Assembly: GCF_016278365.1 (NCBI RefSeq)
Contig: NZ_JADQBZ010000002.1
Span: 71,890 to 135,889, forward strand
DNA: 64,000 nt
Origin: Methanolobus sp.
GTDB lineage: Archaea; Halobacteriota; Methanosarcinia; Methanosarcinales; Methanosarcinaceae
Direction of reading: 5' to 3'
A program made the translations under genes and the position numbers. Position 1 is the first letter of the stretch. The number at the start of each line of letters is the position of its first letter. Below, one piece after another: positions 48,976 to 63,859 of the stretch. The notes beneath the pieces are model-generated. The model was not told the DNA's origin. It searched no databases and worked only from the letters and a program-made list of their open reading frames with translations.

Positions 48976-49034
48976 TTTTGCACTTGTAAAAGCTCGATAC
49001 CTATATAAGATATAACAGCCTTCCAACACTGCGT

Positions 49035-49150
49035 GCCGAGGTGGCAGAGCGGACTAATCCGACGGCAAAACAGTCCCGGAGTCCAAACGCGACCGGCTCG
49101 AGACCGGTTTCTCTGGAAAGAGTGCTTGGGTTCAAATCCCAACCTCGGCG
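49035..49150 (+). tRNA. tRNA-Ser(CGA) with a 30-nt insertion in the D arm
   Basis: Acceptor arms are GCCGAGG and CCTCGGC with discriminator G. The anticodon arm is ACCGG-CTCGAGA-CCGGT with anticodon CGA, the long variable arm is CTCT-GGAA-AGAG, and the T arm is TTGGG-TTCAAAT-CCCAA. The D stem GCA/TGC forms only if bases 59-88 of 49001-49100 (that is 49059-49088) are removed, leaving an 86-nt tRNA. Around the insertion GGACT (49051-49055) pairs with AGTCC (49080-49084) and an AAT bulge is followed by CCG/CGG, a bulge-helix-bulge-like shape. An intron at this position is inferred; a damaged gene is the alternative. Confidence 0.8.
49059..49088 (+). other. apparent non-canonical intron in tRNA-Ser
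   Basis: These 30 nt interrupt the D arm near tRNA position 23/24. The left bulge AAT (49056-49058) and right bulge AAAC (49085-49088) flank a 5-bp helix, close to the motif cut by archaeal splicing endonuclease. Exact cut sites cannot be read from sequence. Confidence 0.55.
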
Positions 49151-49228
49151 TCAGTTTCACAGTTAAACGCCCAACACTTTCACCCTACTTATTTTCAAGA
49201 TATATAGGGGGAAAAGGAAGTATTGGAT

Positions 49229-50422
49229 ATGGGACTGTATGACTACAAAAAGGATATTGAAGCTGCTGAAAAAAGGATAGTCGAAGCGGCATATTCACAA
49301 AAAAACAAGGACACTATTTTTGCTTTTGTGAATGTATTGTATGCAGAAGGCCTATCGGATGCAAGGATCCTCAAATATCTGAGCCAATTGAACATCCTCA
49401 GCGGAAAGTTCGGCAAGGATTTTGACCAAGTCACGATGACCGATATGTACCGTTTTCTGGCTGAACTGGAGAGATCTGACAAGAAACCATGGACTAAACA
49501 GGGGTATAAGGTCACAATAAAACGTTTCTTCCGTTGGCTTAATGGAGGGAAGGAAACAGAGATGACCGAGTGGATCAAGACTCCTATAAAACAGTCGGAT
49601 CAGATGCTTCCAGAAGAGCTTCTTTTAGAAGAAGAGTGCATGAAAATGATTGACTATGCCGACCACCCCCGAGACAAAGCAATCGTAGCATCTTGGTATG
49701 ATGCAGGAGCTCGCGTAGGTGAAATTGGAGAAGTCAAAATAAAGCATGTTGTTTTCGATGATATTGGTGCATTTGTAATGGTAAAAGGGAAAACGGGAAT
49801 GCGAAGAGTAAGACTTGTTTTCAGTGCACCATATATTGCCAAATGGCTGGACATCCATCCGCTAAGAGAAAATCCTGATGCTCAACTCTGGGTGAATATC
49901 GGCCACCGAAATTTTGGAAAGGAAATGAAGTATGGAGCTATTCGAAAAGTAATAAAAGTGACAGCAAAGAAAGCAGGCATTAAAAAAAGAGTTTATAATC
50001 ATCTATTCCGGCATTCTAGAGCCACAGATTATGCAGGTTTCATGTCACAGGCACAGCTTGAGATGCATATGGGCTGGAAACATGGGACCAGGATGTCTGC
50101 AACATATCTTCACCTTCAGGGAGGGCAGGTAGACAATACAATACTTGAGCACTATGGGCTGAAGGAGAAAAAAGAAAGAGCATCAGAGCTCATCCCAAGG
50201 AAATGTTTAAGGTGTAAGACCATGAACGGCCCAACTTCAGATTTCTGTTGCAGTTGTGGAATGGCTCTTAATGCAGTTGCAGCAACAAACAGTGATAACA
50301 TGCAACAACTTGGTATGCAGTTGCTTCTTGAGATTGGTGCACAGAATCCAAAGGATGCTCAGGAATTACAGAGTTATTTAAATAAATTGAAAGAAGCGTT
50401 ATCTAAATGTGATCATGGTTAA
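49229..50422 (+). CDS. int: tyrosine recombinase/integrase with C-terminal zinc ribbon
   Basis: The 397-residue protein has an N-terminal SAM-like DNA-binding domain (residues 1-110, VTMTDMYRFLAELE) and a catalytic domain. Arg is in DAGARVGEIGEVK near 163, HLFRHSR gives His-x-x-Arg near 261, and MGWKHGTRMSATYLH provides the His and nucleophilic Tyr near 290. A C-terminal zinc ribbon (CLRCKTM...FCCSCGMAL) may bind DNA or partners. It should integrate or excise the element at tRNA-Ser. ATG at 49229 follows GGAAG; TTG at 49223 is possible. Confidence 0.9.
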   Translation: MGLYDYKKDIEAAEKRIVEAAYSQKNKDTIFAFVNVLYAEGLSDARILKYLSQLNILSGKFGKDFDQVTMTDMYRFLAELERSDKKPWTKQGYKVTIKRFFRWLNGGKETEMTEWIKTPIKQSDQMLPEELLLEEECMKMIDYADHPRDKAIVASWYDAGARVGEIGEVKIKHVVFDDIGAFVMVKGKTGMRRVRLVFSAPYIAKWLDIHPLRENPDAQLWVNIGHRNFGKEMKYGAIRKVIKVTAKKAGIKKRVYNHLFRHSRATDYAGFMSQAQLEMHMGWKHGTRMSATYLHLQGGQVDNTILEHYGLKEKKERASELIPRKCLRCKTMNGPTSDFCCSCGMALNAVAATNSDNMQQLGMQLLLEIGAQNPKDAQELQSYLNKLKEALSKCDHG

Positions 50423-53852: not shown

Positions 53853-55433
53853 TCAATACGTAACCAGTGAATCCACGTGAGCCACGGTTGTGCAGAGGGG
53901 AGCTTTCCAGAACTGCAGATCCTGGTTGTCGACCGGCCCTTTGGTGCCATCCAGAACAGCCGGTGTTCCATAACCTGCTAAGGCTATGTTTGCGGCCTTT
54001 CCCTCGTATTCTACGAGCAGCCACCTACGGTCGTACATGGCCTGCTGGATGAATACCTGGAAGACGCCAGTCTCCGGGTCGACCTGACCCATTATGTCCC
54101 TGTCCGGTACGTCGCTGCTCTCAATAATAATCTTGTATGCTCCCAGGATCACGTTGCCATTCTGGTCCTTCGCGTGCCCACTCATCACGACCCCCACCAC
54201 GCTCTCCGCCCAGCTCCTGGTCAGCCTGAATAGTGCAAATAAAAATAACCTCTTTGAAAGGGGTAGGGTGTTATTCTCCAGGTGATCTGCGTAGAACCAG
54301 GTTAGTGGCCTAAATGCTACCGGGACATTTACTGGTTCTGGAGTGCTTATGCCTAAAAAGTCTGGCCTCTTTGTGAAGGACCGCTTAGACCAGGCCAGGG
54401 TATTGTTCTCGATATGATCAGCATACCTCCAAACAAGTGGTCTGTGGAATACTGGCACGCCTACTGGGTGGGGAGTGTTCGCTGGGTATTCCAACAGCCT
54501 TGTCGGATTATCCAGATACATAGTATAGGTCAAGTGGGTCAAAACAGGACTATACCTGCCATCGCTGTAAAAGTAAACCCTAGCCCGCCAGTATTTACCC
54601 GTGTATCCTCCGGTAAATATCCGGCCACCGTAGCCTGTGTAAAAGTCAGCCGGATCGCTCGGGCCAAGCCAAGGTGAGAAGGTTTCCATATCGTCGCTGA
54701 ACATCAGCCGAACCTTCAGGCTGGCTCCCTCAACACCCGAAACGTGCCCGATCTGCAGCAGGTCCAGGGTGTTCATATTATCATAATGGTGCCACCAGGT
54801 CTGCTGGATGTAGCCTTCGCTCTTGTACCGCTCCATCCGGATGTTTAAAATGGTGACCCAGTTGTTAAATAAAATATCGGTGGTCACGTTGTTGGTGCAG
54901 CGGACCCGGAATTTCCAGGAAGTTGATAAAATGTTCACTACCTGGTTGGCGACAATCGCGGAGCCGTTCCTGCTCCAGCGAACCACTCCGGTGTCGTCTA
55001 TCAATTCTAAAATAAAATAGCTCGAATGAAGATTTATATTGAAATCGAACGTCATTTTATAAAAACCGAAGCTGTCAAAAATAAAAGACTTGCTCTGATA
55101 GTTGGCATCAATTCTTGTATATGTGGTAAGGGCTGAAAGGGCCAGGTGGATCGTTTTCGTGTTCGCGTCCACGCTGTGGCTCGATGTCAGAAAACCATCA
55201 TCTACTGCTATGTCGGCCCCGTAGGATGGCTCGGTTTCCTCTATCTGCAGGGTGAACTGCTGGGTGGACCGGGTGTAAACTGTATTGTTCCCAGTCGCGT
55301 CCCAGTGTAATTGTTCCCCGTACCCTGTGTGTACGTTGTGGTGGCCCGGCTGGGTTCGAACAAGCTGCTGGTTGGGCTGCGGGTTTCCCCTCCCTGCTAT
55401 CTCTAAAGGAACCCCGACGTGCTCACTGGGCAT
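53853..55433 (-). CDS. putative tail fibre/receptor-binding protein
   Basis: The 526-residue protein is beta-rich and aromatic. It lies last in the tail gene order, where receptor-binding proteins usually sit. Residues about 321-352 and 365-394 are an imperfect repeat (HRPLVWRYADHIENNTL and FRPLTWFYADHLENNTL, each with SKR). A carboxypeptidase-like or Ig-like domain follows (VMSGHAKDQNGNVILGAYKI near 430). No family is recognised. Its last 19 codons are duplicated at 53433-53492, suggesting exchange of fibre tips. Confidence 0.6.
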   Translation of the reverse strand: MPSEHVGVPLEIAGRGNPQPNQQLVRTQPGHHNVHTGYGEQLHWDATGNNTVYTRSTQQFTLQIEETEPSYGADIAVDDGFLTSSHSVDANTKTIHLALSALTTYTRIDANYQSKSFIFDSFGFYKMTFDFNINLHSSYFILELIDDTGVVRWSRNGSAIVANQVVNILSTSWKFRVRCTNNVTTDILFNNWVTILNIRMERYKSEGYIQQTWWHHYDNMNTLDLLQIGHVSGVEGASLKVRLMFSDDMETFSPWLGPSDPADFYTGYGGRIFTGGYTGKYWRARVYFYSDGRYSPVLTHLTYTMYLDNPTRLLEYPANTPHPVGVPVFHRPLVWRYADHIENNTLAWSKRSFTKRPDFLGISTPEPVNVPVAFRPLTWFYADHLENNTLPLSKRLFLFALFRLTRSWAESVVGVVMSGHAKDQNGNVILGAYKIIIESSDVPDRDIMGQVDPETGVFQVFIQQAMYDRRWLLVEYEGKAANIALAGYGTPAVLDGTKGPVDNQDLQFWKAPLCTTVAHVDSLVTY

Positions 55434-55449
55434 GGGTGTTCTGGCCTCC

Positions 55450-56361
55450 TTATGCCACGTATTTTATGGCGTAGTATAACGTGTTTGCGCTATTCGGTGA
55501 CTGGATAGCCTTGCAGATGTATTTCGTTGTTGCTCCCTGGACGGCTATCACGTCCCCGTCGACCAAGCCGGATTCTGGCGAATATTGAAAGAATAGTTCA
55601 GACTGGCCTATCGGCATATATTCAGCAGCATCATTGCAGTAGAGGGGCTTTACAAAGTAGACCTTCCCGCTTCCCGTGCTCTTAAATGCGTACCATTTAC
55701 CTTTCCAGAACTGGATGCCAGATGGCTTAAAATCATTTTGGTTAGACATGAAAGCAAATGCCCTTATGTATCCGCGCATATATGAGGCGCATCCGTCCGG
55801 GATACTGTTGTGGTTCATCTGACAGTAGCACACAAAATTTGTCAGGCCGTCGCTGTATTCCTTAGCTGTCATACGCTCCACTGTACAAATAAATGATGCC
55901 TGGGCATTGTCTGTCGCGTTCGGTTCCGGGACGGCCATTATTGTAAACCCGGTAGCATCCGTCCAGAGGAAGTATGTTAGTAGAAGTGTTCCCATGTCCG
56001 CAACCACGGTGTTGCCGCCGGTCCTCGCTTGGAACGGGATTATTGTCTGCGATTCGGAGGATGCCTGTGATGGATAGGTATTGTTCACGTAGTCCCAGGA
56101 CGACGAAAGTGTCACCCTTAGTCCCTTCCCTCTACGACTGCTTGCAAAGGTTATAATATTTGAATTTACGCACTCTAATGCGATCCAGATGTCCTGGGCG
56201 TCGCCTGTAAATCTCAGACACCTTCTGGCGTTGTTGTTCAGTGTGCCGACCGTAGTCCACGACGGGTCCCCGTCTACCCAGTTGGCTGAACTGGCTATTA
56301 TCTGGTTTGCTATGTCTTCGATTAATGCCGGCAGGGTCTTTGCTCCGCTTGAAAATCCCAT
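55450..56361 (-). CDS. putative virion structural protein (tail tip)
   Basis: The 303-residue protein has a mixed beta composition rich in Asn, Ser and Thr with many aromatics and cysteines (FVCYCQMNHNSIPDGC). Early SSANWVDGDPSWTTVGTLNN looks like a surface-exposed loop. I do not recognise a family. It is placed between a tail-tip gene and the fibre gene, all on the minus strand with spacings below 20 bp, so a tail-tip role is inferred from order. Confidence 0.6.
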   Translation of the reverse strand: MGFSSGAKTLPALIEDIANQIIASSANWVDGDPSWTTVGTLNNNARRCLRFTGDAQDIWIALECVNSNIITFASSRRGKGLRVTLSSSWDYVNNTYPSQASSESQTIIPFQARTGGNTVVADMGTLLLTYFLWTDATGFTIMAVPEPNATDNAQASFICTVERMTAKEYSDGLTNFVCYCQMNHNSIPDGCASYMRGYIRAFAFMSNQNDFKPSGIQFWKGKWYAFKSTGSGKVYFVKPLYCNDAAEYMPIGQSELFFQYSPESGLVDGDVIAVQGATTKYICKAIQSPNSANTLYYAIKYVA

Positions 56362-56376
56362 GTTCTATCTCTCCAA

Positions 56377-57024
56377 TTATGCTGTTTCTACGTACCAGGA
56401 CCCTGTTAAGATCCGGCCGCCATTGTTCAACTCGTCTAGCTCTCTGGCTACGTTCTTTTCTACGGTCCCGACCTGGACGGCCATTATGCTGCTGCCTTCC
56501 TTGACCTGGGTCCCTCCTTGATCTATCGGGTCGCCTGTGACCGCCACAGCTCGCTCTTGTAGCTCGTCGCTGCAGTACATTATCTTGCTCCGCAGGTCAT
56601 ATCCTGTCATCAGGTTGCCGTTTACGTAAGTTCCCTTGTAAGTCGAGGTGATGTAGATCTGGGCCACGGTGACCTGACCTCCGGGATCAAGCTCCCAGAA
56701 ATATTCGCCAGGTGGTAAAGGCTCGAATATCATGTGCAGGGCCCGGCTTGGGCCTACGTGCTTGAAAAGAGTTTCCTGGATCAGGTTGGTCTTGTCCGGA
56801 CTATCGTATATTCGAACAGGTAGGTCCCTGCCTCCGCCATCGTCCAGGGCTATGATCAATCTATCAAACCAGTGTTCTGCGGTGAAACGGGCTCCGTATG
56901 GCAAGCTCAAAAACTGACCGGCTAATATTCCATCGATCCTGGTCTCTAGAAATTCACCGGTTTCCGGTCTGACCTGGACGTATAATATCCCCTGGCCGCT
57001 ACCTGTTATCTTACCTACTGTCAT
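56377..57024 (-). CDS. putative virion structural protein
   Basis: The 215-residue protein begins MTVGKITGSGQGILYVQVRP and looks beta-rich (PLPPGEYFWELDPGGQVTVA, VGTVEKNVARELDELNNGGR). It overlaps the hub gene by 4 bp. No family was recognised. By position after the hub gene it is likely a baseplate or tail-tip part. Confidence 0.6.
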   Translation of the reverse strand: MTVGKITGSGQGILYVQVRPETGEFLETRIDGILAGQFLSLPYGARFTAEHWFDRLIIALDDGGGRDLPVRIYDSPDKTNLIQETLFKHVGPSRALHMIFEPLPPGEYFWELDPGGQVTVAQIYITSTYKGTYVNGNLMTGYDLRSKIMYCSDELQERAVAVTGDPIDQGGTQVKEGSSIMAVQVGTVEKNVARELDELNNGGRILTGSWYVETA

Positions 57025-58472
57025 TCTGGTGTTTCTCCTCTTGAAAATATGATCTTATTGTTGCCGTAAACCTCGAAGCGTAGGGCTCCGCTGGTGCTCT
57101 TGACTTTGAAATTCTGCATATCTAAGTCTGATTCAGCCGGGCTTGTCCAGCCTCCTCCCCCTCCGGAAACAATCACCCTGTCATTGTCAACTGGCAAAAC
57201 TATGCTTTCCCCTTGACCAAGGACCCTGGCAGTGACAGTTCCTCCCCTGTTAAGGTCCACAGTGGTTGTTGAGGAACCAACAATAGGGGCTGCTGCAATA
57301 CCTATCTCCGAGCTTGGCATGGATGTGAGCACATCGTACACAACCGCTTCAGTATCATCGACAACGTTGGGAGTGACAGAGTAAGATCTGAGTCTGCTCT
57401 GGCTGAGGTCCCTGTCAGGAACGCATACGATGTTCACACTGGAACCATGCTCATCCTTGATGTGAGTGATCTCAACTATCCGAACCCAGTTCTCTCCTGT
57501 CATTCCAACAGTGTAGAGGGCATTTTCGTATTCTGTCCAGCCATCGAACTTGACCAACTGATAAAGTTCAGTATCATGTCTTTGAGTAAGGTTTGCAGTT
57601 ATCCTCTTGATAGGGAAATTGAACAAAGAATAGAGTTCTTGGGCTCGCTCATCCGCTGACTGCTGACTGCTTACATAGGGCGATGGATATTCCATGTACT
57701 CCCGGGCCTTAGCGGTCCCATTGGTCACATTAGGACTCTCTTCTATCCCTTTGAACCACTGGCCAGCAGGGTTACACCCAACAGCATAGACACGATTATA
57801 TTTGTCCTCTGACGAGTTTACAACAGCAATATCAATGGTATCGCCGTCTATCCGCTCGAGGATTGCAGGGGTTGGAAGATCCAGACCATCTGTTACATTA
57901 TCGATCTGGTTAGACCTTACGAAATACGCTCTGGATATCCAGATAGGAGACTGAGATGTTCCTGTATTATTCCACTTGACCTCAAAAACGCAATTATAGT
58001 ACTCTGCAATATCGCTGATAGCATCCATTTTTGTCTTATCTGGCCTGAATACGAACTCCTTTTTAGGTATTGCAGGAGGTGGGGTATTGACCTTGTAAGG
58101 CTCGATCCCGCTGATTATCTGCCAATTCACACCACCCAGCAGTTCCTCGATGTACCAGTTCACACTCTCATCTGCAGGCAATACCAGCAGTTCCTCGGGA
58201 ACGAACTGTCTTGACAGGAACCAGCCGTGGTCATAAGCAAATATCTGGACCATTGACCCTGCGTTCTTTAGCGTGTAAGCTTCGTCGGGAGCAGTAACGC
58301 CATAAAAGACAGTTCTATCGACACCATCATTATCTTTCAGCTGCACAGGCACATCAGTATAGTTTGCAGGAATATCCACATCCGACATGCTTGCTTCCAT
58401 CTGCCAGAAAGCGTCACTTATCGACTTGGATATCCTGATAGAACTAAGAGGATAATTATCTAGGCCTGTCAT
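57021..58472 (-). CDS. putative baseplate hub/tail-tip protein (gp27/Gp37-like)
   Basis: The 483-residue protein has an N-terminal domain with DVPVQLKDNDGVDRTVFYGV, and a middle domain with KTKMDAISDIAEYYNCVFEV and RAQELYSLFNFPIKRITANL. This arrangement resembles phage hub proteins of gp27/gpD or ReqiPepy6 Gp37 type. The C-terminus (GGGGGWTSPAESDLDMQNFK) has a glycine hinge and a fibre-like end. It is placed after the tape measure and distal-tail genes, as expected for a hub. Family assignment is inferred. Confidence 0.6.
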   Translation of the reverse strand: MTGLDNYPLSSIRISKSISDAFWQMEASMSDVDIPANYTDVPVQLKDNDGVDRTVFYGVTAPDEAYTLKNAGSMVQIFAYDHGWFLSRQFVPEELLVLPADESVNWYIEELLGGVNWQIISGIEPYKVNTPPPAIPKKEFVFRPDKTKMDAISDIAEYYNCVFEVKWNNTGTSQSPIWISRAYFVRSNQIDNVTDGLDLPTPAILERIDGDTIDIAVVNSSEDKYNRVYAVGCNPAGQWFKGIEESPNVTNGTAKAREYMEYPSPYVSSQQSADERAQELYSLFNFPIKRITANLTQRHDTELYQLVKFDGWTEYENALYTVGMTGENWVRIVEITHIKDEHGSSVNIVCVPDRDLSQSRLRSYSVTPNVVDDTEAVVYDVLTSMPSSEIGIAAAPIVGSSTTTVDLNRGGTVTARVLGQGESIVLPVDNDRVIVSGGGGGWTSPAESDLDMQNFKVKSTSGALRFEVYGNNKIIFSRGETPE

Positions 58473-58801
58473 GCAGTATGCCTCACAAAATTGATATTGT
58501 ATGTGTACTTCCCACTGCCCTTGATGAGCTCTTTATATCGAACCGGCGGAGCAATGTAGCATTTTGTGAACGACTCTGAATCTATGACAAGGGTTCCGGA
58601 GGAGCCTAGCTTCCCGAGCAGGTTGGATATCTCAGTGAAATCCTCTGTGTAGCATTCGAAGGTCCTGGCAAACTTCTGCTCGGGCGAAGCCTGGATATAC
58701 ACTTTGCCTGACAGCAGGGTCGTTTGCTTGAAAGGTGCATCGACTGCGATCTCCCCTTCTTTAATGACAGATAGTGTTACTCCATCAAAGGATACTGCCA
58801 C
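58469..58801 (-). CDS. small tail protein, possibly distal tail component
   Basis: The 110-residue protein begins MAVSFDGVTLSVIKEGEIAV and ends YTYNINFVRHTA, a beta-barrel pattern seen in short distal-tail or hub-adaptor proteins. It lies 2 bp after the tape-measure gene and overlaps the hub gene by 4 bp. A Dit-like role is inferred from position and size. Confidence 0.6.
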   Translation of the reverse strand: MAVSFDGVTLSVIKEGEIAVDAPFKQTTLLSGKVYIQASPEQKFARTFECYTEDFTEISNLLGKLGSSGTLVIDSESFTKCYIAPPVRYKELIKGSGKYTYNINFVRHTA

Positions 58802-58803
58802 TC

Positions 58804-60990
58804 TCAGTACCCCCTACGAACATGTTTTTGTCTATTGTACTGTTCAAGGTCCCTGACAAACTTCTCGAAAGGATAATCTGCAGACAGGTTGACGTTCTGA
58901 ATAACGAACTCATCACCTGCATATGTGTTATTGGTGGTACTGGTGCTTGTGGAGAAGTTTCCAGCTACACTGGTCAGACCCGAGGACAGCATGGCATCCA
59001 TCTTCCCAACTGACCTCTTAATAGGGGACACAAAGAATGCATCCCAGTTTGGAAGCTCCGATAACGGTCCAACCTTTGCGGGGCTATGAGGTAGATATCT
59101 TGAGATACCCGAGAATACATTCGAGACCGTAGATGTCAGAGGATTCACCATTGCCTTGATGCCGTTGATGAAGTTCTGTATCAGGTCCTTCCCTGACTGG
59201 TAGAAACTGCTGCTAGCAGATGTGAATATTGAAAGTATAGGCTCAAGTGCATCAGATATGATAGAATAAAGGAAACCCATGCTGTTCTGGGCTATGTTCT
59301 GTAAGGTCTGCCAGGCTCCTGCCCAGTCACCTGTAAGGACCTGAGAGAACAGCAGTATGAGATCGAGCACCTGTTCAAGGACGTATTCAAATGTTCTCAG
59401 AACCAGAGGCAGCCATACCATAATATTATCTACAACATGGTCTGCAATGTATGAGATCAATGTCCCGAGGATGGATATGATGACAGATACTGCAGATGCT
59501 ATCGTGTCTCCGTTTGCTGCCCACCAATCACTGATCTTGTTCATGGTATTGGATACGAGATCTTTCACGAGAGGAATGAGCGGTTCAATTGCTGTTCGAA
59601 TGTTCTCCAGAGTTTCCCTTACAACGGGAGATACTTTGTCCCAGCTCTTCCAAATCAGAAATGCACCCAATACTAGAGCAGCAATTGCTATTCCCACTGG
59701 CCCTGTAATTACTGCAACTATGCTACCCAGTGCTCCGGCCAGCCCGGCGCCACCTAGGAAAGTTGTCAGTGTTCCAATAGCCCCGATTGCAGAACCTGCT
59801 ATTATGAGGATAGGACCAATCACTGCAGCCACAGCAGCAATTGTCACTATGAGCTCTATTATTGGTTTGGGTATCCCGGACACAACATTGAGGACATCCG
59901 TGAAAGCCCTGACAAGAGGCATGAACCCTTCTGCAATAATGTCTCCGAAGGTTATCATTACACCTTCCAGTGCGGACTTCAGTTCACGCATGACCCCACC
60001 CGGTCCACCCTCCATCTCCTCGGCCATCCTGGCAGCAGCTCCTGCAGAGCTCTCCAGCAATTTCGTCTGCTCACGTATAGCATCAGAACCCGCAGATAGG
60101 AGTGCGATCATACCAGGTCCTGCTTCCTGGCCAAAGAGTGCCATTGCATCTGCTGTGGACAAACCAACTGTACTCAATCTCTCAATGATATCTGTAAAAG
60201 ACTGCGTGGTGGGGTCAATATCAGCAAGTGTGAGCTGGTATTTCTCAAGTACCCTGGCAACCTCGGCTGTCGGATCTGCAAGCCTTGTCATTGCACCTCT
60301 TAATGCAGTACCTGCACGGCTTCCCTGGACACCAGCATCTGACATCTTGCCTATTATGGAAGCTGTCTCTTCCATGGATATACCCATGGCAGCTGCAAGA
60401 GGAGCAACGTAGGACATTGCCTCTCCCAGCTGGATGATATCGGTGTTCGATGATGCAGACGCTTTGGCCAGGACATCTGCCACTCTTCCGGCTTCAGTTG
60501 CTTCCAGGTTAAAACCGGTGAGCACGTTCGATGCGATATCGGCAGCAGTTCCGAGGTCGATGGCTCCAGCTGCAGCAAGATTGAGCATGTCGTCGATGGA
60601 CTCCATGACCTCGGATGTGGAGAATCCTGCCATTGCAAGGTACTGCATACCTTCTGCAGCTTCACTTGCAGAAAAACGTGTAGTTCGGCCAAGCTCCCGG
60701 GCTAAGTCGGTCATCTGTTTGAATTCATCGCCTGTTGCACCGGAGATGGCCTTGACCTTTCTCATGGAGTCATCAAAAGAGGAAGCAGTATGAAACGCCA
60801 CGGCACCAAGTCCCAGGACAGGAGCGGTAACGTAGGTGGAGAGCGTTTTCCCGGCAGAGGTCATTTGTTTACCTGCTTCCTGGAACTTCTTTCCCATCTG
60901 GCTAGCCTGTGAGCTCACGTCCTCAAAAGCCTTCTTTATCTGGCTGATATCCCCGATGATGGAGACTATGAGCTCACCAACAGAAGCCAT
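58804..60990 (-). CDS. phage tail tape measure protein (TP901 family)
   Basis: The 728-residue protein has the TP901 core: RELGRTTRFSASEAAEGMQY near 94, MLNLAAAGAIDLGTAADIAS near 129, AMGISMEETASIIGKMSDAG near 196. Several hydrophobic stretches follow (about 380-460), and helical parts continue to the end. It sets tail length; at about 0.15 nm per residue the tail would be near 110 nm. ATG at 60990 was chosen, with GTG at 60996 possible. It is preceded by the chaperone pair and followed by tail-tip genes. Confidence 0.9.
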   Translation of the reverse strand: MASVGELIVSIIGDISQIKKAFEDVSSQASQMGKKFQEAGKQMTSAGKTLSTYVTAPVLGLGAVAFHTASSFDDSMRKVKAISGATGDEFKQMTDLARELGRTTRFSASEAAEGMQYLAMAGFSTSEVMESIDDMLNLAAAGAIDLGTAADIASNVLTGFNLEATEAGRVADVLAKASASSNTDIIQLGEAMSYVAPLAAAMGISMEETASIIGKMSDAGVQGSRAGTALRGAMTRLADPTAEVARVLEKYQLTLADIDPTTQSFTDIIERLSTVGLSTADAMALFGQEAGPGMIALLSAGSDAIREQTKLLESSAGAAARMAEEMEGGPGGVMRELKSALEGVMITFGDIIAEGFMPLVRAFTDVLNVVSGIPKPIIELIVTIAAVAAVIGPILIIAGSAIGAIGTLTTFLGGAGLAGALGSIVAVITGPVGIAIAALVLGAFLIWKSWDKVSPVVRETLENIRTAIEPLIPLVKDLVSNTMNKISDWWAANGDTIASAVSVIISILGTLISYIADHVVDNIMVWLPLVLRTFEYVLEQVLDLILLFSQVLTGDWAGAWQTLQNIAQNSMGFLYSIISDALEPILSIFTSASSSFYQSGKDLIQNFINGIKAMVNPLTSTVSNVFSGISRYLPHSPAKVGPLSELPNWDAFFVSPIKRSVGKMDAMLSSGLTSVAGNFSTSTSTTNNTYAGDEFVIQNVNLSADYPFEKFVRDLEQYNRQKHVRRGY

Positions 60991-60992
60991 GT

Positions 60993-61259
60993 TCACTCTC
61001 TTTTTATCCTGTTTCCGTAAAGTTCGTAGAATTTATTCAGATCCGGTCTGTCACTATTGCCTGCTTCACTTGCCTTTTCCTGGCCTCCAAGAGCCTCTCC
61101 AAGAACACTCCAGAATATCTTTGCCTGCAGTTCTATGGATTTAATCCCTTTCTCATAGTAGAGCATGACCTGGTTCATCGACATACGGTCCAGCAGATGT
61201 TCCGGGGTGGCCCAGGAGTACATGATCCCCATCTGGGAGAAAATGTCCCCGATGGTCAC
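60993..61259 (-). CDS. tail assembly chaperone, T part (GT extension)
   Basis: The 88-residue frame (from a GTG reading MTIGDIFSQMGIMYSWATPE) overlaps the stop of the G-like gene and lies directly before the tape measure. In lambda-like viruses this frame is expressed as an extension of gpG by -1 frameshifting. Here a slip at the A AAA AAC site at 61265-61271 leads exactly into this frame. Free translation from the GTG is the alternative. Confidence 0.75.
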   Translation of the reverse strand: MTIGDIFSQMGIMYSWATPEHLLDRMSMNQVMLYYEKGIKSIELQAKIFWSVLGEALGGQEKASEAGNSDRPDLNKFYELYGNRIKRE

Positions 61260-61615
61260 TGACAGTTTTTTTCAGGATCCTCGGCAGGTTTCATCTCCTC
61301 AAGTTTCCGGACGATCGGCTCCAGGACGAACTTTGAGAACTCCACAAGGGTGAACATGTCCACATTGTCCATGAGCCAGTCTGCGGTTATCTTCGGGTTT
61401 GAGCGCTGGCATGCGGTTGCTACGACCTCGACAAAGCCTTGGATGTTCTTCCCTTCCTCAAGGCTTCGGACCTTCTCCGGAGAATCGGTCATATCGATGA
61501 GTTTCAAGGTTGCCCTTGTTGAGAACACTGAAACATCAACCTCTTCACCTGCGACCCTAGCAAGCCGTTTAGGAGGAACGATGGTATCGAAATCCTTCAT
61601 GATATCAGAGCTCAT
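61256..61615 (-). CDS. tail assembly chaperone, G part
   Basis: The 119-residue protein is small, acidic and helical (RVAGEEVDVSVFSTRATLKL, FVEVVATACQRSNPKITADW). It lies between the tail tube and tape measure, the standard position of gpG-like chaperones. Its last codons carry the slippery site. It would coat the tape measure during tail assembly. No sequence family was recognised, so the call rests on position, size and the frameshift site. Confidence 0.7.
   Translation of the reverse strand: MSSDIMKDFDTIVPPKRLARVAGEEVDVSVFSTRATLKLIDMTDSPEKVRSLEEGKNIQGFVEVVATACQRSNPKITADWLMDNVDMFTLVEFSKFVLEPIVRKLEEMKPAEDPEKNCQ
61265..61271 (-). promoter_or_regulatory. A AAA AAC slippery site for -1 frameshift
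   Basis: On the minus strand the zero-frame codons are GAA AAA AAC TGT CAG TGA. The heptamer A AAA AAC is in the correct phase, three codons before the stop. The -1 frame continues CTG TCA GTG ACC, which is the downstream chaperone frame. Confidence 0.75.
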
Positions 61616-61617
61616 GT

Positions 61618-62412
61618 TCAGACCCCCTGCTCATCGTATATCTCAAAAAGCTGGTCACCAGCAGTCCTGGTAACATCGAGGACGCCTTTCATCTTCAGGT
61701 GTGGCATTGCCGGGTCATCACCGTCATCTGCAGGGAACTCGATGTTCTGTCCCTCGTTAACTGTGGCCTTGTAGAGTGTGATCCTGAATATCTTACCATT
61801 CTCATCGGTGTTGGTTATGCGGACCACACGGTCTGATATTGTGGTCTTGCCACCGCTCTTGAGGGTCACTGCGGAGTTTGGAGTATAAGAGTAGTCCACC
61901 AGCACTCCTTCTCCGTCAATGATCACAGAGGATGCTGCCACTCTGGCGATGCAGGTGTATCCGGCACTGTCCACGGCTATCACGTAGTCGGTGTTCTGGA
62001 CAGCTGCATTGCTGCTTGCATCGGTGACAACGATAGAACCGACCTCAGTACCATCCCCGTCCTTGTGTTTAAGTCTCACAAAATCAGTACCATTGAGGAT
62101 ATGGGCTTCATTTTCTACAGACACCGGTGTCCCGGCAACGGCTGCATAGGTGTCAAGGCCACCTCTGATAGTGTTGAGGTTTGCCAGGTCGACCTCCATC
62201 ATGTCGCCTTCGATATAAGCTACATGCTCCTTAATGCCTACCTTCACGACGCCGGCATTATCTGATCTTACCTCTACGTCTTCCCATTCTTCCTTGAAGA
62301 CGGCACTACGGATCGCTCCGATGTTAACAAGCGTTGCAATCGAGGTTCCTACCTCAAGCTTCCCGGACCCAAACCTTATGGACCCAGAGTTCTGTACTGT
62401 TGTCTGTGCCAT
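61618..62412 (-). CDS. major tail (tube) protein
   Basis: The 264-residue protein begins MAQTTVQNSGSIRFGSGKLE. The pattern KEEWEDVEVRSDNAGVVKVG and EHVAYIEGDMMEVDLANLNT is typical of tail-tube proteins of long-tailed viruses. A C-terminal Ig-like insertion (EVGSIVVTDASSNAAVQNTD) follows. It has AGGTGA before the ATG and precedes the chaperone genes. There is no sheath protein next to it, so the tail is non-contractile. Confidence 0.75.
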   Translation of the reverse strand: MAQTTVQNSGSIRFGSGKLEVGTSIATLVNIGAIRSAVFKEEWEDVEVRSDNAGVVKVGIKEHVAYIEGDMMEVDLANLNTIRGGLDTYAAVAGTPVSVENEAHILNGTDFVRLKHKDGDGTEVGSIVVTDASSNAAVQNTDYVIAVDSAGYTCIARVAASSVIIDGEGVLVDYSYTPNSAVTLKSGGKTTISDRVVRITNTDENGKIFRITLYKATVNEGQNIEFPADDGDDPAMPHLKMKGVLDVTRTAGDQLFEIYDEQGV

Positions 62413-62422
62413 TTTTTTTCAC

Positions 62423-62800
62423 CTAGATGTGTATGATCTTGAAATCAACAGGCACATGGAAGAGACCGGTCTCGTCCTCGATAGCATCATGAGAATTCTC
62501 GTAAACGACCTGCTTGATATGGTTCCCCGATGCTACGCCTTTGTACCTTACAAGACAGTTCATCGCTGCCTCGGATAATGTTTGTACTATTACGAATGAT
62601 TCTGCCCAGCATGAGACCTGGTACCTTGGCGTGCCATGACCTGTAATGTGGTCAATTGGATTGCTTATCTTGTGAATGCTTATTGCAGGCAGTGGACAGT
62701 CCAGTGGCAATCTAAGCGGATAGATCCGGTTGCCGGTAAGGCCCGTCACCGTATTGTCTGCAAGCAGCAGGTTCCTAAGAGCTCCATGTATCGAGGTCAT
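62423..62800 (-). CDS. tail terminator/completion protein (DUF3168-like)
   Basis: The 125-residue protein begins MTSIHGALRNLLLADNTVTG, then RIYPLRLPLDCPLPAISIHK and RYQVSCWAESFVIVQTLSEA. The profile is that of DUF3168 tail completion proteins that cap the tail tube. It overlaps the gp10-like gene by 4 bp and precedes the tail tube gene. Confidence 0.75.
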   Translation of the reverse strand: MTSIHGALRNLLLADNTVTGLTGNRIYPLRLPLDCPLPAISIHKISNPIDHITGHGTPRYQVSCWAESFVIVQTLSEAAMNCLVRYKGVASGNHIKQVVYENSHDAIEDETGLFHVPVDFKIIHI

Positions 62801-63228
62801 CTGTAGCTCCTGATAACTTTCTCAAGTTTGAGGGCAATGGCTCTCTCGACCTCGTCCGTGTTCTCATCCAGCGCAGGCCGGAGGAACGGTCTTGGCGGCT
62901 GATGATATCTCCGTCCCAGTGAATCAGTATCATTGAACCCTTTCTCAAGACGCATTGCGTAGTTCATGGTAGAGCCTACCATCACCTCACACCTTTCACT
63001 TGATCTCTCCACGTATATCGGACTCACCTGTGCAATGTTGCGGAACAGATTACCGGTTATCCTGTGTGGGAAGTTGTCACCGCCTTTTCTTGAGTTCTCC
63101 TGAGCAGCTCTAACAACCACGTCTGCTCCTGCAAGTGTACCTTCCTCCAGGACATCAGCAATGTCCTTACCTAACTCTTTCAGGGTCTTCTGCAACTCCT
63201 CCAGACCGTTGACCTTCATTTTGAACAT
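62797..63228 (-). CDS. HK97 gp10-like neck/tail protein
   Basis: The 143-residue protein begins MFKMKVNGLEELQKTLKELG, with ADVVVRAAQENSRKG near 30 and RPFLRPALDENTDEVERAIA near 115. This is the HK97 gp10 pattern. These proteins join head and tail. The start at 63228 follows GGAG; a longer frame overlaps the previous gene. It is in the usual order stopper, gp10, terminator. Confidence 0.85.
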   Translation of the reverse strand: MFKMKVNGLEELQKTLKELGKDIADVLEEGTLAGADVVVRAAQENSRKGGDNFPHRITGNLFRNIAQVSPIYVERSSERCEVMVGSTMNYAMRLEKGFNDTDSLGRRYHQPPRPFLRPALDENTDEVERAIALKLEKVIRSYR

Positions 63229-63230
63229 GA

Positions 63231-63515
63231 TCAGCTCCCAAGGAACACTATCTGGACCACAATTCCCGCTATCTGCAGGACCACAACAACAGCCAGGCCG
63301 ATGAAAGCGTTCCTTCCAAGCCATCTGTTCTGCCGCTCTTCCAGCATACGGATCCGTTCCTCGTGGTCCTCGATGGAACATTTCTCAAGCACACGGATCC
63401 TCTTCTCATGATCGTCAAGCTGGCAGCTCATCTTGTCGATACCGGCACGAACATGCTTGACATCGATATGGGTCTCAATTATCTTGTCATAGGTTTCCTG
63501 GTCGATATCCATCAT
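63231..63515 (-). CDS. coiled-coil protein with C-terminal membrane helix (XhlA-like)
   Basis: The 94-residue protein begins MMDIDQETYDKIIETHIDVK and has a heptad-rich middle (CQLDDHEKRIRVLEK and EDHEERIRMLEERQNR). It ends in one membrane helix (AFIGLAVVVVLQIAGIVVQI). This layout resembles XhlA-type phage proteins that help holins lyse cells. Its presence between head-tail joining genes is unusual. ATG overlaps the preceding stop codon (ATGATG context). Confidence 0.65.
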   Translation of the reverse strand: MMDIDQETYDKIIETHIDVKHVRAGIDKMSCQLDDHEKRIRVLEKCSIEDHEERIRMLEERQNRWLGRNAFIGLAVVVVLQIAGIVVQIVFLGS

Positions 63516-63859
63516 TTCACTGCCTTGAGATCGCATTCATAGTGATGCACGGTGTTTGCCATGGGCCAGAAGACGGGCTTTACGGCTGTAACTTCGTAAG
63601 TGTTAGAGAATTCAGGGATGGTGCTTGTGATCGTTTGACCCTCTGTAACTGTTACGGTAGACGGAAGTATAATAAATAGTTCTGAGACAACGTGCTCTCC
63701 GCTATCCTGTGAGATCATCCGGCCATTACCCGGGATAAAACGACAGGCTGATGCAGCAACGGTGGTTGTGTATACAGGTGAACCGTACTCATCCTGGCCT
63801 GACTGGATCCTGGAGACAATACTGCAGGTATGAACAAGTCCGATATCGTGGATCATCAT
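63512..63859 (-). CDS. head closure/stopper protein
   Basis: The 115-residue protein begins MMIHDIGLVHTCSIVSRIQS and contains YTTTVAASACRFIPGNGRMI and YEVTAVKPVFWPMANTVHHY, a beta-barrel like SPP1 gp16-type stoppers. The position between a connector-like frame and gp10 supports it. Start and stop codons overlap those of neighbours. Confidence 0.65.
   Translation of the reverse strand: MMIHDIGLVHTCSIVSRIQSGQDEYGSPVYTTTVAASACRFIPGNGRMISQDSGEHVVSELFIILPSTVTVTEGQTITSTIPEFSNTYEVTAVKPVFWPMANTVHHYECDLKAVK

Follow-up and report, generated by a model that had tools for sequence, protein, structure and literature searches.

In the 64,000-nt stretch of DNA analysed here (the window), positions 49035–49150 of the forward strand hold a class II tRNA-Ser gene whose anticodon is CGA and whose D arm is enlarged by a 30-base insert; we asked what this insert is and what becomes of it. 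The host is a Methanolobus-type methanogen with a genome of 2.87 Mb in 19 contigs. A preliminary description had placed a tRNA-Ser(CGA) with a D-arm insert at this site and held its remaining arms to be intact; the sequence bears out both the location and the insert, and all other arms are indeed intact and conserved class-wide. The gene was detected neither by ARAGORN in default mode (introns off) nor by Rfam at the gathering score, and in a search of the whole genome with RF00005 it scores just 16.1 bits. With the insert deleted, ARAGORN called a regular tRNA-Ser(CGA); with the insert left in, it called nothing. As a practical consequence of being missed by ARAGORN default and Rfam, tRNA-Ser(CGA) may be reported missing from the genomes of such methanogens, which would seem to lack it under default tRNA finders. 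The tRNAs Ala-UGC, Arg-UCG, Leu-GAG, Pro-CGG and Trp-CCA were absent among the whole-genome RF00005 hits; these genes may have introns too, or fall into gaps in the assembly.

A second intact tRNA-Ser(CGA) gene elsewhere had been proposed as a sign that this copy is a pseudogene. DNA search, the RF00005 list and an anticodon-to-T-loop pattern revealed no second tRNA-Ser(CGA) in the genome, leaving 49035–49150 as the sole copy; the tRNA-Ser species with GGA, UGA and GCU anticodons are separate genes. The codon UCG is in use: across six open reading frames of the window it accounts for 11 of the 115 serine codons. Upstream of the tRNA gene by ∼27–33 bases lies a TATA-like promoter box, TATATAA (49002–49008, + strand), and an A/T-rich promoter-like box is kept at a similar place, ∼30 bases upstream, in relatives. 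That the gene is dead and tRNA-Ser(UGA) alone reads UCG is suggested by the presence of tRNA-Ser(UGA) in the genome and by the failure of default finders to see the CGA gene, but the intact arms conserved across the class, the promoter-like box and the lack of any other CGA gene make this extremely improbable. Neither decaying arms nor an intact second gene, as expected for a tRNA pseudogene, was found. Group I introns have a ribozyme core and span hundreds of bases; the insert is 30 nt long and had no Rfam match in the window.

Comparison with related genomes ruled out an artefact of the assembly or of a single genome. Each of the 26 other genomes of the genus contains the full insert-bearing gene, with 87–97% identity, so that all 27 Methanolobus-type genomes searched carry it. 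With a pattern reaching from the D arm to the anticodon, insert-bearing genes were recovered from 94 of the 238 genomes belonging to the class (27/27 in the genus, where 0/27 had an intronless gene), counts that are lower bounds as the pattern misses genes of other spacing. Named genomes with the insert include Methanolobus, Methanococcoides, Methanohalophilus, Methanosalsum, Methanohalobium and Methanomethylovorans, as well as ANME-3, ANME-2 (ANME-2a/b) archaea, Argoarchaeum/GoM-Arc1 and Methanotrichaceae; most other Methanosarcinaceae genera have it, as do 24/24 of the Methanotrichaceae genes read. Outside the class, one genus of another class has the shortest inserts, of 16–17 nt. The presence of the same insert across relatives indicates a real and old archaeal tRNA intron. 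The preliminary description had thought a D-arm intron unusual in a methanogen; comparative evidence supports a D-arm tRNA intron of the bulge–helix–bulge (BHB) type in this methanogen, but within its own class such an intron is common.

Intronless orthologs with a precise empty site occur in three families, of which f3 and f5 belong to the same order and f6 to the same class; they read GCAGAGCGGACTAACGCG (TGCG in f6) where insert-bearing genes read GCAGAGCGGACTA[ATCC...GTCYNN]ACGCG. The insert thus interrupts an otherwise intact tRNA gene. Methanosarcina-sized genomes and some small genera (L133–L140) have a quite different, intronless tRNA-Ser(CGA) (GCCCAGGTAGTCTAGTGGTAAGGCG...), which is apparently a replacement of the intron-bearing gene. 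In Methanotrichaceae, the T loop of the tRNA-Ser(CGA) gene holds a further insert (TTCAAA...GGAAAATCCC; loci L171, L228, L239–L242, L244–L250, L253–L255, L257–L260 and L262–L267), and the D-arm and T-loop inserts together give two noncanonical introns per tRNA gene. Some ANME-2-type contigs (L110, L217 and L233) contain extra partial tRNA-Ser(CGA) copies that are broken by a hairpin-like TCGAAAATCG...CGATTTTC and adjoin a further copy.

The energy fold of the window sequence yielded exactly a central helix between GGAC (49051–49054, exonic, in the D loop) and GTCC (49081–49084), the bulges TAA (49055–49057) and AAA (49085–49087), and an inner intron helix between TCCG (49058–49061) and CGGA (49077–49080), all on the + strand. 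Among 86 distinct insert-bearing sequences, GGAC pairs with GTCC, GTCT or GTTC in every one, a 3-nt bulge follows the central helix on each strand in 86/86, and the 3′ bulge always ends in A. Inner-helix pairs one to three also form in all 86, with C-G, T-A, T-G or G-C as the third (re-paired shuffles reached at most 81), and the fourth pair forms in 56 of the 86 versus at most 43 in shuffles, which take no account of shared descent among the sequences. TCCG/CGGA, TCTTC/GAAGA, TTCCG/CGGGA and TCG/CGA are the solutions of different lineages to the same inner pairing, and by this comparison the changes at the third inner pair, inside the intron, are compensatory. Judged in the same way, the paired architecture is far beyond chance, as it is kept in 86/86 while the loop changes freely and intron length ranges from 16 to 47 nt. 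The preliminary description had seen a helix and two bulges close to a BHB motif, which agrees with these results; its 5-bp helix GGACT/AGTCC is present in this sequence (49051–49055/49080–49084), but the conserved pairing is the 4-bp GGAC/GTCC.

On the outer side, C at 49050 lies opposite C at 49088, and no contiguous outer helix separates the 3′ bulge from the tRNA junction, into which it opens. Because the outer helix at the 3′ bulge is not closed, the motif is of the relaxed (HBh′/BHL-like) kind, having a helix, a 3-nt bulge and an inner helix with one side open, at a position other than 37/38. It is not a strict hBHBh′ canonical intron, given its position 21/22 and the open 3′ side in the fold. 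A retained insert, serving as an extra arm in a 116-nt tRNA that works unspliced, would fit the conservation of insert length and ends within the genus. Against it stand the 16–47-nt length range with its free loop, in which only BHB-type elements are kept, and the clean absence of the insert in related families, where the precise empty site of the intronless orthologs argues against a conserved unspliced 116-nt tRNA; we consider the chance of such a tRNA next to nil.

In each 3-nt bulge of a BHB motif, archaeal EndA cleaves between the second and third bases. Applied to the bulges TAA and AAA, this rule predicts cuts at TA^A and AA^A and hence a 30-nt intron ATCCGACGGCAAAACAGTCCCGGAGTCCAA at 49057–49086 (+), tRNA position 21/22, a placement consistent with the conserved architecture, the empty site and the fold. 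The 5′ exon, as judged from the alignment with intronless orthologs and the cutting rule, would then be 49035–49056 (+; tRNA positions 1–21) and the 3′ exon 49087–49150 (+), with the anticodon CGA at 49099–49101 as called by ARAGORN on the spliced sequence. The limits given earlier, 49059–49088, are two bases off. The predicted product without 49057–49086 reads ...GGACUAACGCG..., is 86 nt long and of mature type, and matches the intronless orthologs base for base in its D arm. Deleting 49058–49087 gives the same RNA, the two being inseparable by sequence alone. A 29-nt splice, 49058–49086, was rejected, as its product has a D loop of 12 nt, unlike the orthologs.

Splicing of the same intron as 49059–49088 would give a full 3-bp D stem, GCA/TGC, and ARAGORN draws three D-stem pairs for it versus two for the 49057–49086 product, whose D stem holds an A12·C23 mismatch. 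However, most intronless orthologs have this mismatch as well, and of the 45 genomes that have such an ortholog 43 keep C23, so what the alternative avoids is tolerated. It would also violate cutting after the second bulge base and need a fifth helix pair, T49055–A49080, which is impossible in relatives with GGACAAT. We dropped the five-bp helix register because these relatives are unable to make that pair, and regard splicing at 49059–49088 as very unlikely.

With high confidence, the insert is thus a noncanonical intron that interrupts the sole tRNA-Ser(CGA) at position 21/22 and is predicted to be cut out by EndA, with the exons ligated to an 86-nt tRNA. We infer that its removal would take place at the RNA level: in the transcript, GGAC of the D loop would pair with GTCC near the intron 3′ end, creating the 4-bp helix, its two 3-nt bulges, one per strand, and the inner intron helix; a two-repeat alpha'2 homodimeric EndA would cut both strands at the predicted sites; and RtcB would be expected to ligate the exons, as in other archaea. 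The outcome would be a tRNA-Ser(CGA) with the D arm of its intronless relatives.

The genome has one EndA gene (L035:916–1983, − strand; 355 aa), whose product contains two PF01974 and two PF02778 stretches, a two-repeat organization of the alpha'2 type, and has the A. fulgidus homodimer as its closest solved structure. At the site of the Crenarchaea-specific loop, its stretch is one residue longer than that of A. fulgidus. As the sole EndA is an alpha'2 enzyme without the crenarchaeal loop, such an enzyme should do the cutting. An insertion as long as the crenarchaeal loop was found in neither intron-bearing nor intronless lineages (11 of 15 EndA sequences), and a tie between intron presence and the EndA loop was rejected on these grounds. 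A conserved FRVYPRGGHPGKTPA stretch is retained in the N-terminal repeat of this EndA but missing from the A. fulgidus enzyme. Relaxed motifs have been described as not cut efficiently by alpha'2 enzymes (PMC4033280, PMC6379350); this is contradicted by a report that homodimers do cut them (PMC8707768). Pending biochemistry, the tRNA-Ser(CGA) gene may stand as natural evidence for homodimer cutting of relaxed motifs.

How the intron came to be so widespread is a separate matter. A tyrosine integrase gene (PF00589; window 49223–50422, + strand) starts ∼70 bases past the tRNA gene, with whole or partial copies at the same place in L008, L010, L017, L023 and L169 (Methanolobus and Methanomethylovorans). 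Farther on, tailed-virus structural genes (window about 53853–63859, − strand), among them tape measure (58804–60996), tail terminator, neck and major tail protein, point to a provirus or remnant downstream of the tRNA. An ARAGORN call of tRNA-Cys in that region (window 53885–53963, + strand) is antisense to a 526-aa open reading frame and has no Rfam support; it is probably false, a doubt raised by the good tRNA-Cys on contig C4. Spread of the intron by integrating elements whose attachment site includes an intron-bearing copy of the tRNA, instead of vertical descent, would bear on its origin only. The integrase directly downstream and integrase sequence, whole or partial, in 15 related loci speak for such spread, and an earlier proposal has introns being transferred by way of attP (Sugahara 2012, as cited in PMC8371274). 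Yet the integrase is absent from most loci, the upstream neighbour gene of tRNA-Ser(CGA) is the same across related genera, the genome has no second copy, and the next 75 kb contain no stretch of at least 13 nt repeated from the tRNA or its flank; with that search, an integration site at the tRNA gene was also rejected. We therefore regard transfer by such elements as unlikely. On balance, we favour a broader reading in which, throughout Methanosarcinia, a relaxed D-arm motif is spliced in vivo by a loop-less alpha'2 EndA, voiding the textbook enzyme link, and in which the intron predates the Methanosarcinaceae/Methanotrichaceae split, with losses in some families and gene replacement in Methanosarcina-type genera. 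If this is true, the link of relaxed tRNA introns to (alpha-beta)2 or epsilon2 enzymes fails.

Most known cases of D-arm introns and of relaxed motifs come from Crenarchaeota and Thaumarchaeota (PMC3218864, PMC8450103); three thermophilic euryarchaeal methanogens are mentioned as well (PMC3218864), and euryarchaeal tRNA introns have been described as confined to the canonical position (PMC4090602). We found no description of this D-arm intron in Methanosarcinales in the literature searched; GtRNAdb or supplementary tables may list it. The present intron is at odds with reviews that allow only canonical introns in Euryarchaeota (PMC4090602) and only canonical cutting by alpha'2 enzymes (PMC4033280, PMC6379350), and its class-wide presence in the D arm of a single-copy tRNA of culturable alpha'2 methanogens makes these claims directly testable, with introns of 16–47 nt, intron losses and one gene replacement as a natural series. 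It shares with canonical euryarchaeal 37/38 introns, such as the anticodon-loop introns of the Met-CAU and Tyr-GUA tRNA genes of this genome, an EndA-type helix between 3-nt bulges, but differs in its position 21/22 and in lacking a continuous outer helix. The introns of Thermoproteales, other Crenarchaeota and Thaumarchaeota (PMC3218864, PMC8450103) are similarly short and located away from 37/38, including in the D arm, and the noncanonical crenarchaeal and thaumarchaeal ones likewise have a 4-bp helix, 3-nt bulge(s) and a relaxed outer side; in contrast to the crenarchaeal case, the host here is a mesophilic-type euryarchaeal methanogen, and its EndA is a loop-less alpha'2 enzyme, not (alpha-beta)2. 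Thermophilic methanogens of the Methanopyrus kandleri type (PMC6379350, PMC3218864) also combine a noncanonical intron with a methanogen host, but M. kandleri EndA is (alpha-beta)2, whereas the present intron extends through a whole class and occurs together with an alpha'2 enzyme. Overall, the kind of intron is already known, and it is the pairing of host and enzyme, in a little-noticed taxon, that is unexpected.
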